Source: an uncultured Bacteroidota bacterium (GTDB lineage: Bacteria > Bacteroidota > Bacteroidia > Flavobacteriales > Flavobacteriaceae). Taken from it: a stretch of 64,000 bases of DNA. The stretch lies in the NCBI GenBank assembly GCA_913047695.1, contig CAJWUI010000005.1, positions 124,001 to 188,000 on the forward strand, given 5' to 3'. The position numbers were made by a program, and so were the translations under genes. The notes under the pieces were generated by a model, which was not told the DNA's origin, searched no databases, and saw nothing but the letters and a program-made list of their open reading frames with translations. Positions 2,068-11,015 of this stretch are shown here, in pieces (position 1 is the stretch's first letter; every line of letters begins with the position of its first letter).

Positions 2068-3171
2068 TTATAATTTAATGAATATTCTTTTTCTATAAAG
2101 ATAGTAAGTTGGTATCCACAGTATAATCACATAAAATATTGCATAGATTAGAGATCCCAGTTTCATGGGAAAGCCAATATTTTCGAAAATTCTCATGAAT
2201 TCAGAATTAAGTGCAACTCCAATCCACTCTGAATTATAAAAGATTATAGTTAACATGCTTGAGAGGGAATAAGCAAAAATTGAATTTACACCAAAAACAT
2301 GTGCAAATCTAAATTTGTATTTACTTTTATTAAGGTCAAAAAAGTAAATCGAGGCAGCTAAGCCAAGAGTACTTACTCCGCCCATTAATAGAGTAAAAGA
2401 TGTACTCCATAAGTTTTTATTAAGTGGGAAAAACCATTGAAATAAATCTCCAAGAAAGAGAAACAAAAAGCCAGTAAAAAATAACTTATTTAGGCGCTGG
2501 CCAAGGGATTCTTTATTTAATAAAATATATCCTGAAAACATTCCTATTATTCCAGTAGCAATAGATGGTAACGTACTCAATATTCCTTCAGGGTCCCATG
2601 TGTCCTCCCAAAGAACACCAGGCAATAATAGTGAATCAATATAATGAGCCCAATTTCTTTCAGGAACACTCAAATCTGGAAATCCAATACCAGGAACCGG
2701 AACATAAACCATAATTATCCAATAAAATAACAATAAAAATATTCCTAAGTAGATCTGAAATTTTCTAGAGGTATACAAAAATAAAAGTGCACAAGCTAAA
2801 AAAACAAAAGAAATACGGTGTAGTACACCAACCCAACGAATTTCATCAAAGTTAAAATCAGGCCAAATCCACAAAAAAATTCCAACACCGTAGATCTTTA
2901 AGGCCCGAATTAAAGTTTTTTTTGTCATATCAACTTTACTTTTTCCAATTTCAATTTGTTTGGTAAAAGATAGAACTATTGATACCCCAACCATAAATAG
3001 AAAAGTTGGAAATATATAATCAGTAGGAGTAATTCCGTTCCACTCAGCGTGAAGCAAAGGCGGATAGACATAACTCCAAGAGCCTGGAGTATTTACAATA
3101 ATCATTAAAATTATCGTCAGACCTCTTAGTATGTCAAGGGATAGTAATCTCTGGTTTTGTATTTCTTTCAT
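2068..3171 (-). CDS. NagX-like transmembrane acyltransferase (DUF5009 / heparan-alpha-glucosaminide N-acetyltransferase family)
   Basis: A 367-aa polytopic inner-membrane protein with roughly ten hydrophobic segments. The N-terminus has the family pattern RLLSLDILRGLTIILMIIVN, with the SLDxLRGLxI motif, then TPTDYIFPTFLFMVGVSI. This matches the DUF1624/DUF5009 group that includes the lysosomal heparan-alpha-glucosaminide acetyltransferase and bacterial NagX. The bacterial members are often encoded beside N-acetylglucosamine or chitin genes. Its ATG shares one base with the stop of the upstream GH20 gene (TAATG), so the two are probably co-translated and act on amino sugars at the envelope. 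The acyl donor and acceptor are not known from sequence; NagX transport or acetylation of GlcNAc is an inference. Confidence 0.82.
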   Translation of the reverse strand: MKEIQNQRLLSLDILRGLTIILMIIVNTPGSWSYVYPPLLHAEWNGITPTDYIFPTFLFMVGVSIVLSFTKQIEIGKSKVDMTKKTLIRALKIYGVGIFLWIWPDFNFDEIRWVGVLHRISFVFLACALLFLYTSRKFQIYLGIFLLLFYWIIMVYVPVPGIGFPDLSVPERNWAHYIDSLLLPGVLWEDTWDPEGILSTLPSIATGIIGMFSGYILLNKESLGQRLNKLFFTGFLFLFLGDLFQWFFPLNKNLWSTSFTLLMGGVSTLGLAASIYFFDLNKSKYKFRFAHVFGVNSIFAYSLSSMLTIIFYNSEWIGVALNSEFMRIFENIGFPMKLGSLIYAIFYVIILWIPTYYLYRKRIFIKL

Positions 3172-5675
3172 TATTTCTGGATTTTTATTGAATTCCCTCC
3201 TCGTCCGTTAGAGTCAAAAACACGTAAAATAACCTGATCGTTAGATTTAATTTTTACAGGGGAGGTATATAAATGGTCATTTTTTTCTGGCTTTTTGCCG
3301 TTTAGTGTATATCTTATTTCAAGACCAGGGAATTGTTGGCGAGCTTTAAGTGTAAAATTATCTATTATTGCTCCAGGTTTCGGTAAATCAAAATTAATTT
3401 CTTTAAAATTATCAGATATATACAGCAGATGCCTTTGTCCTATGGTGTTTACAAACCGGTTCCATGACTTTAATAATAAAGGTTTTTGTTTTTCAGCTGT
3501 AATTTCCTCTAGCCAAGTTTCTTTGGGGCTCCAGGCCCTTTCGGAGAATACAATTAAATTAGGCATTAGCATTCGATCAAATTGGTATGAGTCTGTTGCT
3601 GTTTCAGTCCAAAGTTGAGATTGGATTCCAAGAAAATTGGAAACACTATTTTTTTTAAGTTTTTTGTATTTAATAAGTTCATTTTCATCTGCATTGAGTT
3701 CTTTTAATTTCACCTTGTTGGCAAAGACATTTAACGGTTCGGTACCCCAGGTATCTTGATAATCAACATAACCAGACCAATTTAATCCCCCGTTTTCAAT
3801 GTCTTTGTCATCTGTCATGTCAAAATAGAATGCAGATGAATTACTCATTACCGACTTAAACCCTTTGTTAGCTAATTTGTATATCATATCCTCTCTTCCA
3901 TCACCCCAGGTATTGTTCCATACGAGTGGTATAAAATTTAAATCAATTAAATTTTTATTAATTCTAATTTCAGATTGACTTTTTTCACTTAAAACTAAAA
4001 GTACATCCTCCCAACCTGACATTTTTGCTCCAGAATCTGAAATAATTCTATTTAATTTTTTTACACTTGCATCATACAAAGATTGAAAAGAGCTTAAGTC
4101 GGGTGATTTAGAAATAAGTTTATTACATAGTGGTGATTTTCTCCACGAACCGTGAGGTACTTCATCAGCACCGATGTTAAAAATTTTCATAGGCACAGAT
4201 GAGGAATCATACATAGCTTTAATTTCAAAAAATACTTTTTCAAAAAACTTAAAAGCACTTTGCCGACAAATACAAATAACATTATCGTTAAATAGCTGTG
4301 CTGAAGTATATTCACTTTTATCATTTGGGTCATGAAGTCGATATTGATTAGCGGATACTAGATCTCCTTTTTCCAAAAATTTGTAATATCGTGCTTCCAT
4401 AGCTATAATTGCAGCTCTAGCGTGGGAAGGAAAACTTATTTGGGGGATTACTTCAATATTTCTTTTAGTAGCTTCTTTAATGATTTTAATAAAATCATCT
4501 CTACTGAGATAACCATTACCCGGGCTATTTTTTTCTCCTGATCCTGAGCCATACATAGGGATTAATCTATCTTTCTCATTTAACGTGAAACCACGTTTAC
4601 CTCCAATATCAGTTAGCTCTTCTAATCCTGGTATTTCTATTCGCCAGCCCTCATCGTCTGAAAGCCTTAGGTCAAGGATATTAAGTTTATAATGAGTCAT
4701 AAGTTCTAAGATCTGTAGAATTTTATTTTTTGGATAAAAGTTTCTTGATAGATCTAACATAAATCCACGATGTTTAAATCGTGGAGCATCCTCAATATAG
4801 AGTAATGGAATATCTTTCTTCTCAATTTGGGCATTATAAAGAATTTGACGCAACGAGGAAAAACTATATAGAAGCCCTTTATAGTTTGAGACACTTATTC
4901 TGATTATGTCTTTATCAATTTTTAAATGGTACGCTTCTTCATCAAGATTTGAATCTCTATTCACTATAATTTGGGGAGGCTCACCTGTATATTTAACATC
5001 TATGCTTAAACCTTTTTGCAGATAATTTTTTAGAAACTCATGATCATTTTTAAAATTCCCGAAGTCTATATTCAATGATTTAGGAAAACCAAATTTTTGA
5101 TTTTGTAAAATCATTTTTCTAGGAGTAGGGATTACCCAATGTAAATCTTCTTTAGATAAAGTTTTAATTCCTTCATACTTTAAGAAGCGATCTGCTGCAG
5201 AGGGTATATTTAAACTTTCCAGTCCTTTAGCATTTTGCCAAATAATTTTGCTTTCTAAATCATGAAACTTACTATTTTTTTGATCATAAACAAAAAAACC
5301 TACTGGACCCATTACTAATCTTTTCATTATTCCTTTTTGAATTGCTGAAAAGCTAAATTTATCCCCTGGACTAATTGAAAATGAATCTCCAAAACTAAGT
5401 CTGTAGTATTGAATATTTTTAGTTGGTATCAACTTAATTCCATTGGGAAGGCTTTTTTTATCTATATCACCACTAAATTGATTCCAATTTAATTCCCATT
5501 TTCCTGCCTCCCATATTTGATTTGAATTATTAACTAATTCAAAAGTTACTTCCATTTGATCATTGTCAAAGTCAAAATTATTGATGTGGAATTGAATTTT
5601 GGAAGTTTCTTTTTCTTTAGGCTTGCATTGAATTAAAAATGAAGAAATAAAAACAAGAAGCAAGAAATTTTTCAT
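3171..5675 (-). CDS. Beta-N-acetylhexosaminidase lipoprotein, GH20 family
   Basis: An 834-aa exported glycosidase that removes terminal GlcNAc/GalNAc from chito-oligosaccharides or glycans by the GH20 substrate-assisted mechanism. The N-terminus is a lipoprotein signal (MKNFLLLVFISSFLIQC). Domains in order: a CHB_HEX-like carbohydrate-binding domain (about 25-145), a GH20b domain (about 175-295), a GH20 catalytic TIM barrel (about 300-700) starting RFKHRGFMLDLSRNFYPK with LRLSDDEGWRIEI, and a C-terminal chitobiase-type Ig-like domain (about 760-834). The catalytic Asp-Glu pair is D504-E505 in FNIGADEVPHG. It is translationally coupled to the NagX-like gene downstream, suggesting periplasmic release and handling of N-acetylhexosamine. 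Exact substrate is not determined by sequence. Confidence 0.95.
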   Translation of the reverse strand: MKNFLLLVFISSFLIQCKPKEKETSKIQFHINNFDFDNDQMEVTFELVNNSNQIWEAGKWELNWNQFSGDIDKKSLPNGIKLIPTKNIQYYRLSFGDSFSISPGDKFSFSAIQKGIMKRLVMGPVGFFVYDQKNSKFHDLESKIIWQNAKGLESLNIPSAADRFLKYEGIKTLSKEDLHWVIPTPRKMILQNQKFGFPKSLNIDFGNFKNDHEFLKNYLQKGLSIDVKYTGEPPQIIVNRDSNLDEEAYHLKIDKDIIRISVSNYKGLLYSFSSLRQILYNAQIEKKDIPLLYIEDAPRFKHRGFMLDLSRNFYPKNKILQILELMTHYKLNILDLRLSDDEGWRIEIPGLEELTDIGGKRGFTLNEKDRLIPMYGSGSGEKNSPGNGYLSRDDFIKIIKEATKRNIEVIPQISFPSHARAAIIAMEARYYKFLEKGDLVSANQYRLHDPNDKSEYTSAQLFNDNVICICRQSAFKFFEKVFFEIKAMYDSSSVPMKIFNIGADEVPHGSWRKSPLCNKLISKSPDLSSFQSLYDASVKKLNRIISDSGAKMSGWEDVLLVLSEKSQSEIRINKNLIDLNFIPLVWNNTWGDGREDMIYKLANKGFKSVMSNSSAFYFDMTDDKDIENGGLNWSGYVDYQDTWGTEPLNVFANKVKLKELNADENELIKYKKLKKNSVSNFLGIQSQLWTETATDSYQFDRMLMPNLIVFSERAWSPKETWLEEITAEKQKPLLLKSWNRFVNTIGQRHLLYISDNFKEINFDLPKPGAIIDNFTLKARQQFPGLEIRYTLNGKKPEKNDHLYTSPVKIKSNDQVILRVFDSNGRGGNSIKIQK

Positions 5676-9247: not shown

Positions 9248-9443
9248 AGCTTTTTAAAAGACTTCAAATTTACAAAATGAAAGAAATTTAAATATAATAG
9301 TTAAAATAAAAACTTTGATAACAAAGTTTTACTGGTTGAAGGAAATTATTTTTTTGAATAGCCTTTTTTTATTATTATTATCGGTTAAAGTTGTAAAATT
9401 TAAAATTAATTGTTTCGGATTAAATTTTAAAATTCAATAATAT

Positions 9444-9451
9444 TAAATTTG
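9444..9451 (+). promoter_or_regulatory. Candidate -7 box upstream of the kinase-like gene
   Basis: TAAATTTG lies 14 bases before the ATG at 9466 and matches the Bacteroidota -7 element. No TTG occurs 17-23 bases upstream, so this is a half-match. The rest of the 218-base gap from 9248 holds only AT-rich sequence in which I see no gene or stable hairpin. Confidence 0.35.
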
Positions 9452-9465
9452 ATGGAAATGCGATT

Positions 9466-10527
9466 ATGGAAGATAAATTAATTTCACAAAAAAAACCATT
9501 TTATCCTATATGCTTAGATCTTGAGAAATTTTTAAAGTCCTATGATCGTTGGATTGAAACTCCCGTTTGCTACAGCGATTTATTAAGATTTTCGGGTTCG
9601 ATTATTTTATATGATAAAAATGATAACGACACACTTTGGGTTAGTGTATTTTTTTCCGAAACTGAAAGGCGTGATATTGATTATAATTTAAAGAAAATTT
9701 ATACTCTACTTCATTCAGATGGAAATGAATCTGGTATTCAATATCTTAGTGTAGATTCAATTGACTATTGCACCTTTGGCAACTCAAAACCATTTAGAGT
9801 TAAAATTAGAAATATCCTAAATGACAACTTTACTTATTACTATATTAAAAAAACCGATGCTTCAAGAATTTATGGTTTAGAATATGAGCACATGCTTTCA
9901 CCATACAACCTAAATTTCTTAGTTAATGAAAATACGCTAGTTGAAGAACATATTGCGGGAATTCCAGGAGATACTTTTATAAGAGATTTTTTACCGAAAT
10001 GTAATGAATCAGAAAAATCACAAATTGCAAAAGAATATGTTAAGTTTAATGAACGAAGTATGATTCGCCTTTTAGGAGATATGAGAGCCTATAATTATGT
10101 TGTTGTGCCAACACACGATTTTGATCAAGTAGTTTACAAAATTCGTCCAATTGATTTTGACCAACAATCATTTGAAGGTAAATTTTCTGTTTATCGTCCT
10201 CAGTTTTTCAAAGAGAATTTCCCAATAATGGAATTAGTTCGCAGTAAACTCAATAGAGATTCAATTAATCAGTACAAAATTGAAGAGCGATCCATTGTTG
10301 CAAGAAGAATAATAAGTTCTGGGAATCGTTTAAAAAAACTCTTAAAAATAATGCAAAGTGACGAGACAACTTTAAAATCTAATCTTAGAAGACTTAAAAA
10401 AGAAATTTACAATTTTACCAAAGATCAGGATTTTCTGAAGAGCAAATCTATGGGAGATGTTATGAGCGCAGCATTAAATTTTGTAAGATTAAATTATGAA
10501 AAAGTAAACATGCAAGATTTTTTTTAA
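9466..10527 (+). CDS. Unrecognised cytoplasmic protein with kinase-like (APH/choline-kinase-like) motifs
   Basis: A 353-aa protein without signal peptide or membrane segments; I do not recognise a named family. Its middle reads like a protein-kinase-like fold. A basic beta strand YYYIKK (about 124-129) could hold the ATP-binding lysine. A following helix GLEYEH (about 137-142) could hold the paired glutamate. A hinge-like VEEHIAGIPGDTFI sits at about 159-172. A catalytic-loop-like GDMRAYNYVVV has D205 and N210, spaced as in the APH-type HGDxxxxN loop. IRPIDFDQQSF (D230) resembles the DFG/IDFD metal-binding motif. The last 100 residues are helical and basic. It is transcribed alone, divergent from uvrB, and overlaps the convergent gene at 10524 by 4 bases. 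Substrate unknown; the kinase idea is inference from motif order. Confidence 0.6.
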   Translation: MEDKLISQKKPFYPICLDLEKFLKSYDRWIETPVCYSDLLRFSGSIILYDKNDNDTLWVSVFFSETERRDIDYNLKKIYTLLHSDGNESGIQYLSVDSIDYCTFGNSKPFRVKIRNILNDNFTYYYIKKTDASRIYGLEYEHMLSPYNLNFLVNENTLVEEHIAGIPGDTFIRDFLPKCNESEKSQIAKEYVKFNERSMIRLLGDMRAYNYVVVPTHDFDQVVYKIRPIDFDQQSFEGKFSVYRPQFFKENFPIMELVRSKLNRDSINQYKIEERSIVARRIISSGNRLKKLLKIMQSDETTLKSNLRRLKKEIYNFTKDQDFLKSKSMGDVMSAALNFVRLNYEKVNMQDFF

Positions 10528-11015
10528 TAAAAGGAATCTTCGTTGTAATCTAAATTCAGGTCCTCTTCATTATCTTGACTTTGGTCAGACATGAGATCTC
10601 CGTCTGTTTGAAATTTTTTTTCAGGAGGATCTTCAGGTACATCACCTTGACTGTTAATTAGATTGGGGTAATCTATTCCAGAAATAGTTTTACCTGATTC
10701 TTTTAGCTCAATATAAAAAGTCCACATTTTTAAAAAGTCGTAAACATATATAAGTCTCTTCTGAGAATCTTTGAAAATTTGATCTAGTTTCTCATTCTCC
10801 ATTGAAGCATTATCATCGATTGAGAATATGGGAAGCTCTTTTACTTGCCCCCAGTCTTTATCTGATTCATAAAATGAAGCTAATTCGTTTCCGAGAAAAC
10901 CAAACGATTTTGAAATTGCTTCATGTAAATTTTTAAGTGTGCTGTTAGCTTCAATTTCAATGTCTCTTAGCACATCTTCTTCAACATCTAATATTACTCT
11001 AATTCTGAAAATCAT
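10524..11015 (-). CDS. Plasmid pRiA4b ORF-3-like family protein
   Basis: A 163-aa acidic protein resembling the pRiA4b ORF-3 / IS1096 passenger TnpR-like family, which is chromosomal in many Bacteroidota. The N-terminal half has the family layout: FRIRVILDVEEDVLRDIEIE, NSTLKNLHEAISKSFGF, then a hydrophobic-aromatic block LIYVYDFLKMWTFYIEL corresponding to the family's 'YxYDFGDxWxhxI'. The C-terminal 45 residues are acidic and low-complexity (DQSQDNEEDLNLDYNEDSFY). Its start overlaps the 3' end of ctaA by 17 bases, so it is probably co-transcribed with it. There are no transposon ends or transposase nearby, so the family name does not imply mobility here. Function unknown. Confidence 0.7.
   Translation of the reverse strand: MIFRIRVILDVEEDVLRDIEIEANSTLKNLHEAISKSFGFLGNELASFYESDKDWGQVKELPIFSIDDNASMENEKLDQIFKDSQKRLIYVYDFLKMWTFYIELKESGKTISGIDYPNLINSQGDVPEDPPEKKFQTDGDLMSDQSQDNEEDLNLDYNEDSFY

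Follow-up and report, generated by a model that had tools for sequence, protein, structure and literature searches.

The described systems closest to the protein considered here, which is encoded in a 64,000-nucleotide stretch of DNA from an uncultured Flavobacteriaceae bacterium (hereafter, the window), are the VPS34/PI3K catalytic domains, the Helicobacter kinase CtkA with the HipA-type kinases, the APH/choline kinases and the CotH kinases. The metal motif of PI3K is DFG, whereas the window protein has DFD, and the other domains of the PI3K set are absent from it; the two-lobed kinase fold is common to the window protein and VPS34/PI3K (PDB 7rsp_A, 9lwq_A), in full-length as well as in core alignments. 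The resemblance to CtkA and the HipA-type kinases (PDB 3akk_D) is that of a bacterial kinase fold over the core, but no HipB-like partner was noticed among the neighbours scanned. General PKL motifs are shared with the APH/choline kinases, and a DxD-type metal motif with the CotH kinases. None of these likenesses extends to the Pfam profiles, in that the window protein gave no row for PF00454, HipA_C (PF07804), APH (PF01636) or CotH (PF08757). The Lani_1194 family is reported from Flavobacteriales and carries Arg at the position of the catalytic Lys (PMC9758233), whereas the family of the window protein keeps Lys. SelO is reported to AMPylate redox proteins (PMC10870513).

The gene, its invariant residues and its predicted fold

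A check of the open reading frames of the window found, at positions 9466-10527 (+), a frame with an ATG start that encodes 353 amino acids. Its parts, with the kind of evidence for each in brackets, are:

9466..10527 (+): whole gene, 353 amino acids, predicted PKL-fold protein of an unnamed family (open reading frame, homologues, AlphaFold2 model)
9466..9738 (+): N-terminal region, residues 1-91, helices and a beta hairpin (conservation, predicted secondary structure)
9769..9798 (+): loop CTFGNSKPFR, residues 102-111, between kinase strands 1 and 2, at the position of the nucleotide loop (conservation, model strands 94-102 and 110-116)
9847..9867 (+): KKTDASR, residues 128-134, in which K128 ends the third strand and D131 and R134 are invariant (model, conservation)
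9880..9882 (+): E139 in helix 132-144, at the position of helix C (model, conservation)
9943..9972 (+): EEHIAGIPGD, residues 160-169, hinge after strand 157-162 (model, conservation)
10075..10095 (+): GDMRAYN, residues 204-210, following helix 181-205; putative catalytic loop, containing D205 and N210 (model, conservation)
10153..10161 (+): DFD, residues 230-232, at the position of the metal-binding motif, end of strand 221-230 (model, conservation)
10210..10497 (+): helical C-lobe, residues 249-344 (model)

The residue numbering of the initial annotation, with K128/K129 in YYIKKTDASR, D205 and N210 in GDMRAYN and D230 in RPIDFD, is correct. Of the two neighbours that it named, uvrB does adjoin the gene, in divergent orientation and with 218 bases between the uvrB start and the open reading frame, whereas heme A synthase lies one gene further off; both identities are presumed from reading the sequence. 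Directly downstream lies a convergent PRiA4_ORF3-like gene at 10524-11015 (-), which overlaps the kinase stop by 4 bases and whose product matches Pfam PF07929 (E = 5.4e-20). At 3171-5675 (-), the window encodes a large protein that, by eye, resembles a lipoprotein of the family 20 beta-hexosaminidase type. A probable promoter of its own, also proposed for the gene, did not stand out from chance: there are 9 sigma-70-like sites compared to a mean of 8.7 in shuffled sequence, the best one being at 9269-9298 (11/12 positions matching), and TANNTTTG at 9444, the Bacteroidota -7 motif, is one of 96 copies in the window against 113 expected.

Conservation was counted over 170 aligned rows, in which some genes are entered more than once (L001, which is the window's own locus; L055, the same as L032; L056, the same as L089; and pairs on contigs of equal length, such as L008/L091, L010/L092, L027/L093 and L028/L094). 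In all 170 rows, K128, D131, R134, E160, H162, G165, D205, N210, D230, F231, D232 and Q233 are identical, and so are C102, N106, P109 and R111 of the loop that precedes kinase strand 2; position 139 is E in 169 rows and D in one. In the N-terminal region, K10, R28 and Y36 occur in 170/170 rows and W58 in 169/170. Identity to the window protein falls to 36% in the remotest row of the alignment (A1). The residues that mark the PKL superfamily, i.e. the beta3 Lys, the helix C Glu, the catalytic Asp, the Asn five positions after it and the metal Asp, are thus conserved, and since none of the catalytic residues is lost in any of the 170 rows, a pseudokinase through residue loss was rejected.

The full-length AlphaFold2 model, built from 79 sequences (alignment A2), none of them less than 61% identical to the window protein, has a pLDDT of 86.9 and a pTM of 0.85. 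The predicted order is strands 94-102, 110-116 and 121-129 (with K128 at its end), helix 132-144 (with E139) and strands 151-153 and 157-162, followed by the hinge, helices 168-178 and 181-205, GDMRAYN, strands 209-218 and 221-230, DFD and the helical lobe. The same order of elements was obtained when residues 92-353 were modelled alone (alignment A3, pLDDT 83.0), with pLDDT below 50 at positions 141-156 of that fragment, from the last DFD residues on. The predicted model is accordingly two-lobed, and its key residues lie on the expected elements, in line with the kinase-type order of elements read from the sequence in the initial annotation: the order is that of a PKL protein, with K128, E139, D205, N210 and D230 in the expected places. 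Structure prediction with a fold search had been named there as the check, and variation of the pocket residues among homologues as the finding that would speak against a kinase. The kinase fold was recovered and no such variation was seen at K128, D205, N210 or D230 (170/170 rows each); K129, which had been placed in the pocket as well, is K in just 116 of the 170 rows and drops out of the set.

Foldseek searches of the PDB with the full model and with the core returned 22 and 11 rows, respectively, at E up to 0.001, and all 50 rows listed per search, by Foldseek and by VIA-align, for the full model and for the core, are kinase-fold entries by title. The TM-scores of the Foldseek rows listed are low (0.16-0.37 by query length), and the superposition is poor. 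In predicted structures of viral proteins, the top rows are mostly named as serine/threonine kinases of large DNA viruses. VIA-align, which realigns the top 1000 of Foldseek only, gave best Z values of 8-11, near the 7-8 that the tool quotes as a typical best for models without a clear match; because the values are this close to the background of the tool, we use them as evidence of a kinase fold and only weakly as evidence of a PI3K-like one. A non-kinase fold was rejected on the invariant residues together with the predicted model. As judged from sequence and model, the product is probably a catalytically competent phosphotransferase of the PKL fold.

Distribution and genomic neighbourhood of the family

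Of 100 related genomes searched with the kinase protein, 58 contain a match (29 of the 59 of good quality); in a search across the phylum, 80 of 296 genomes do (79 of the 291 of good quality), though one of the 80, G344, contributes only a 42-residue fragment with a stop in frame. Because of these matches and the invariant catalytic columns, the gene is more than a chance frame and, on sequence comparison, is a real gene of a conserved Bacteroidota family. Among the best 80 of 576 confirmed loci, named genomes with the kinase include Maribacter, Zobellia, Tenacibaculum, Winogradskyella, Olleya and other Flavobacteriaceae. Two more of these best 80 (L129 and L169), at 63-64% identity, come from records titled Rhodospirillaceae and Rhodobacteraceae, which are probably mislabelled metagenome bins. 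Among the 100 related genomes, 15 further families of the order are represented; 11 of them gave no match, and in one of the matching families the kinase was found in only 1 of 3 genomes. The suggestion that the kinase is special to its lineage does not hold, as members are also present in further orders and in a second class of the phylum. The family is normally single-copy per genome; G189 carries a second, divergent copy (36% identity; L085 4977-6080, -) beside Clp-protease-like genes. The genome of the window also encodes a separate CotH protein (G000:C10, E = 3.6e-64). A mobile or viral gene was considered and rejected, given no match in plasmid or phage records; none of 12 pattern stretches in viral contigs is a relative of the kinase by tblastn.

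In the family to which the window belongs, a divergent ABC transporter pair (its two families are present in 60 and 58 of 131 loci) is common upstream of the kinase, and so is uvrB (upstream in 30/131 loci, by clustering); a PRiA4_ORF3-like gene is present in the stretch around the kinase in 80/131 loci, not always adjacent. At L033 (3171-4920) and like loci, the ABC transporter pair lies near the kinase; among the loci whose gene order was inspected, it is mostly upstream and divergent. At seven loci of the same class outside that family, the neighbours vary by locus (RodA, CorA, malic enzyme, Clp protease and others). For the window, the initial view that context gives no substrate was borne out.

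A recurrent partner was found in another class of the phylum, which we suspect to be Rhodothermia. There, 12 of the first 16 loci have bshA upstream of the kinase on the same strand, at an interval of -4 to 86 bases, and a wider sample that includes the first 16 genomes has it so in 41 of 56 loci (29 of the 40 new ones). The median gap is 29 bases; of the 40 pairs measured, 38 have a gap of at most 93, and the remaining two have gaps of 131 and 954. The three BshA proteins scanned score 541-577 bits against the equivalog TIGR03999, compared to a cut-off of 273.7. The kinases of the first 12 bshA loci share 56-97% mutual identity, and because they differ to this extent, the pair has evidently persisted. 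The link is less special in that the whole neighbourhood is conserved in this class: a gene for a metallo-beta-lactamase-fold hydrolase (for example, L075 6020-6667, -) is convergent downstream in 41/56 loci, of which 38 have it within 400 bases and nine are without bshA. At L071, a glycosyltransferase-4 gene three genes from the kinase fell under the BshA threshold and was left uncounted. Among the 115 other loci examined, bshA was found in the flanks of none (tblastn, E up to 1e-20).

In the genome of the window, bshA is on contig C9 and the kinase on C5, which also carries bshC (C5:93727-94854); a bacilliredoxin-family gene is present as well. BshC occurs in 291 of the 296 genomes of the phylum, the 5 without it all being outside the 80 with the kinase, and bacilliredoxin in 218 of the 296, including all 80 with the kinase (lists compared by eye). 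However, 15 of the 20 listed genomes without bacilliredoxin (of 78 in total) belong to one family, f31, which has no member among the 218, and because the co-occurrence is non-discriminating once relatedness is allowed for, it is not strong evidence.

Relationship to known kinases

The initial annotation could match the flanking sequence to no known family, and the absence of a named sequence family was upheld by the lack of a Pfam or NCBIfam match above cut-off. Pfam gave the window protein four weak, unrelated rows at E up to 10 (a range in which the HMMER filters drop most rows above 0.1), all under cut-off, NCBIfam zero matches and PHROGs one weak row. The 37 members of A1, scanned singly, gave scattered weak Pfam rows, none of them APH among the 25 families listed out of 27; the best, CFAP300 (4/37 members, E = 0.0006), was taken for chance. 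By sequence, the PDB gave seven weak rows for the window protein (best E = 0.24) and none for the A1 profile. Long open reading frames at L079 (632 amino acids), L074 and L070 were considered as possible domain fusions and set aside, as a Pfam scan at E up to 0.1 gave none of them a domain; the one at L079 is taken for an open-frame artefact, since its extension overlaps bshA in another frame. Titles and abstract openings in the literature, a scope outside which the KINtaro family table falls, contained no description of the kinase family or of the bshA-kinase pair.

With regard to the kind of kinase, a regulatory protein kinase like HipA, CtkA or Bud32, whose target would be a protein of the cell such as, perhaps, an enzyme of thiol metabolism or of translation, is a reasonable possibility that we hold at less than even confidence. 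The best PDB rows of Foldseek are protein kinases and pseudokinases, and VIA-align aligns the core with bacterial CtkA (Z 7.4, 201 residues, 5.6 A) and Bud32 (Z 7.3, 165 residues). These Z values are middling, however, no conserved substrate-protein or antitoxin-like partner was seen beside the gene among the loci clustered, and the partner in the other class, bshA, encodes a metabolic enzyme.

That same metabolic neighbour counts in favour of a small-molecule kinase of the APH/choline-kinase kind, the branch to which the initial annotation had assigned the protein, as does the resemblance of GDxxxxN and of the hinge EEHIxGIPGD to the APH pattern. We nonetheless consider this assignment rather unlikely, given the absence of an APH row within the reach of the filtered Pfam scan and a low-power profile-profile comparison (hhalign) with 30 APH open reading frames of related genomes that gave zero signal. 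HipA and CotH open reading frames of related genomes likewise gave zero signal in this low-power test, the best CotH match spanning 14-15 columns at 1.8-4.4% probability; because APH, HipA and CotH did not find one another either, the comparison is uninformative. The nearest realigned folds are those of VPS34 and PI3K, and no APH, HipA or CotH title is among the VIA-align rows listed, which are drawn from the top 1000 of Foldseek and cannot exclude APH.

A lipid or polyol kinase like PI3K/VPS34 is quite unlikely, even though titles of PI3K-family catalytic domains fill 50 of the 50 VIA-align rows listed for the full model and 38 of 50 for the core. VPS34 comes first for the full model (Z 10.9, 269 residues aligned over 18-352, 4.5 A, approximately 10% identity) and PI3K-alpha for the core (Z 8.8, 210 residues, 4.6 A, approximately 10% identity), and the spacings of K-x-x-D-x-x-R and GDxxxxN equal those of the p110 kinases. 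Against this, the fold resemblance is at middling Z and low identity, PF00454 gave no row for the window protein and was found in 0 of 148 genomes of the phylum, and phosphoinositide kinases are not known from these bacteria. Least probable of all is a PKL enzyme with another chemistry, e.g. AMPylation as in SelO, redox-tuned by Cys102, for which the presence of this Cys in 170/170 rows at the start of the loop expected over ATP and the redox-gene neighbour bshA can be cited; against it, the protein retains the catalytic Asp and all the usual kinase residues, a pattern accounted for by ordinary phosphotransfer.

A possible place in bacillithiol metabolism

Since the gene follows bshA at a short distance in another class, this phosphotransferase of the PKL fold most likely acts in the metabolism of low-molecular-weight thiols (bacillithiol) or in redox control; this assignment is tentative. 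The pair suggests a bacillithiol link, which may extend to the organism of the window. A more specific version, which we consider unlikely as a whole, is that the family is a new bacillithiol-system kinase whose gene accompanies bshA in one class and stands alone elsewhere; it would phosphorylate a bacillithiol precursor or an enzyme of bacillithiol synthesis or use, and Cys102 would act as a thiol switch. The protein is probably cytosolic, no signal or membrane stretch being evident by eye. ATP-Mg would be held by the loop 102-111, the K128-E139 pair, N210 and D230, and D205 would serve as the base as the gamma-phosphate moves to the substrate; the invariant Cys102 at the nucleotide loop would suit a thiol-switched enzyme.

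The kinase represents an unnamed, normally single-copy family of Bacteroidota within the known PKL superfamily. A kinase-fold family that keeps all catalytic residues down to 36% identity, over several orders and classes of Bacteroidota, and has no Pfam or NCBIfam name constitutes a gap in annotation, and the pair with bshA narrows the candidate substrates to a short, testable list. We know of no phosphorylation step or switch in the bacillithiol system; if the thiol link is true, this family would provide one.
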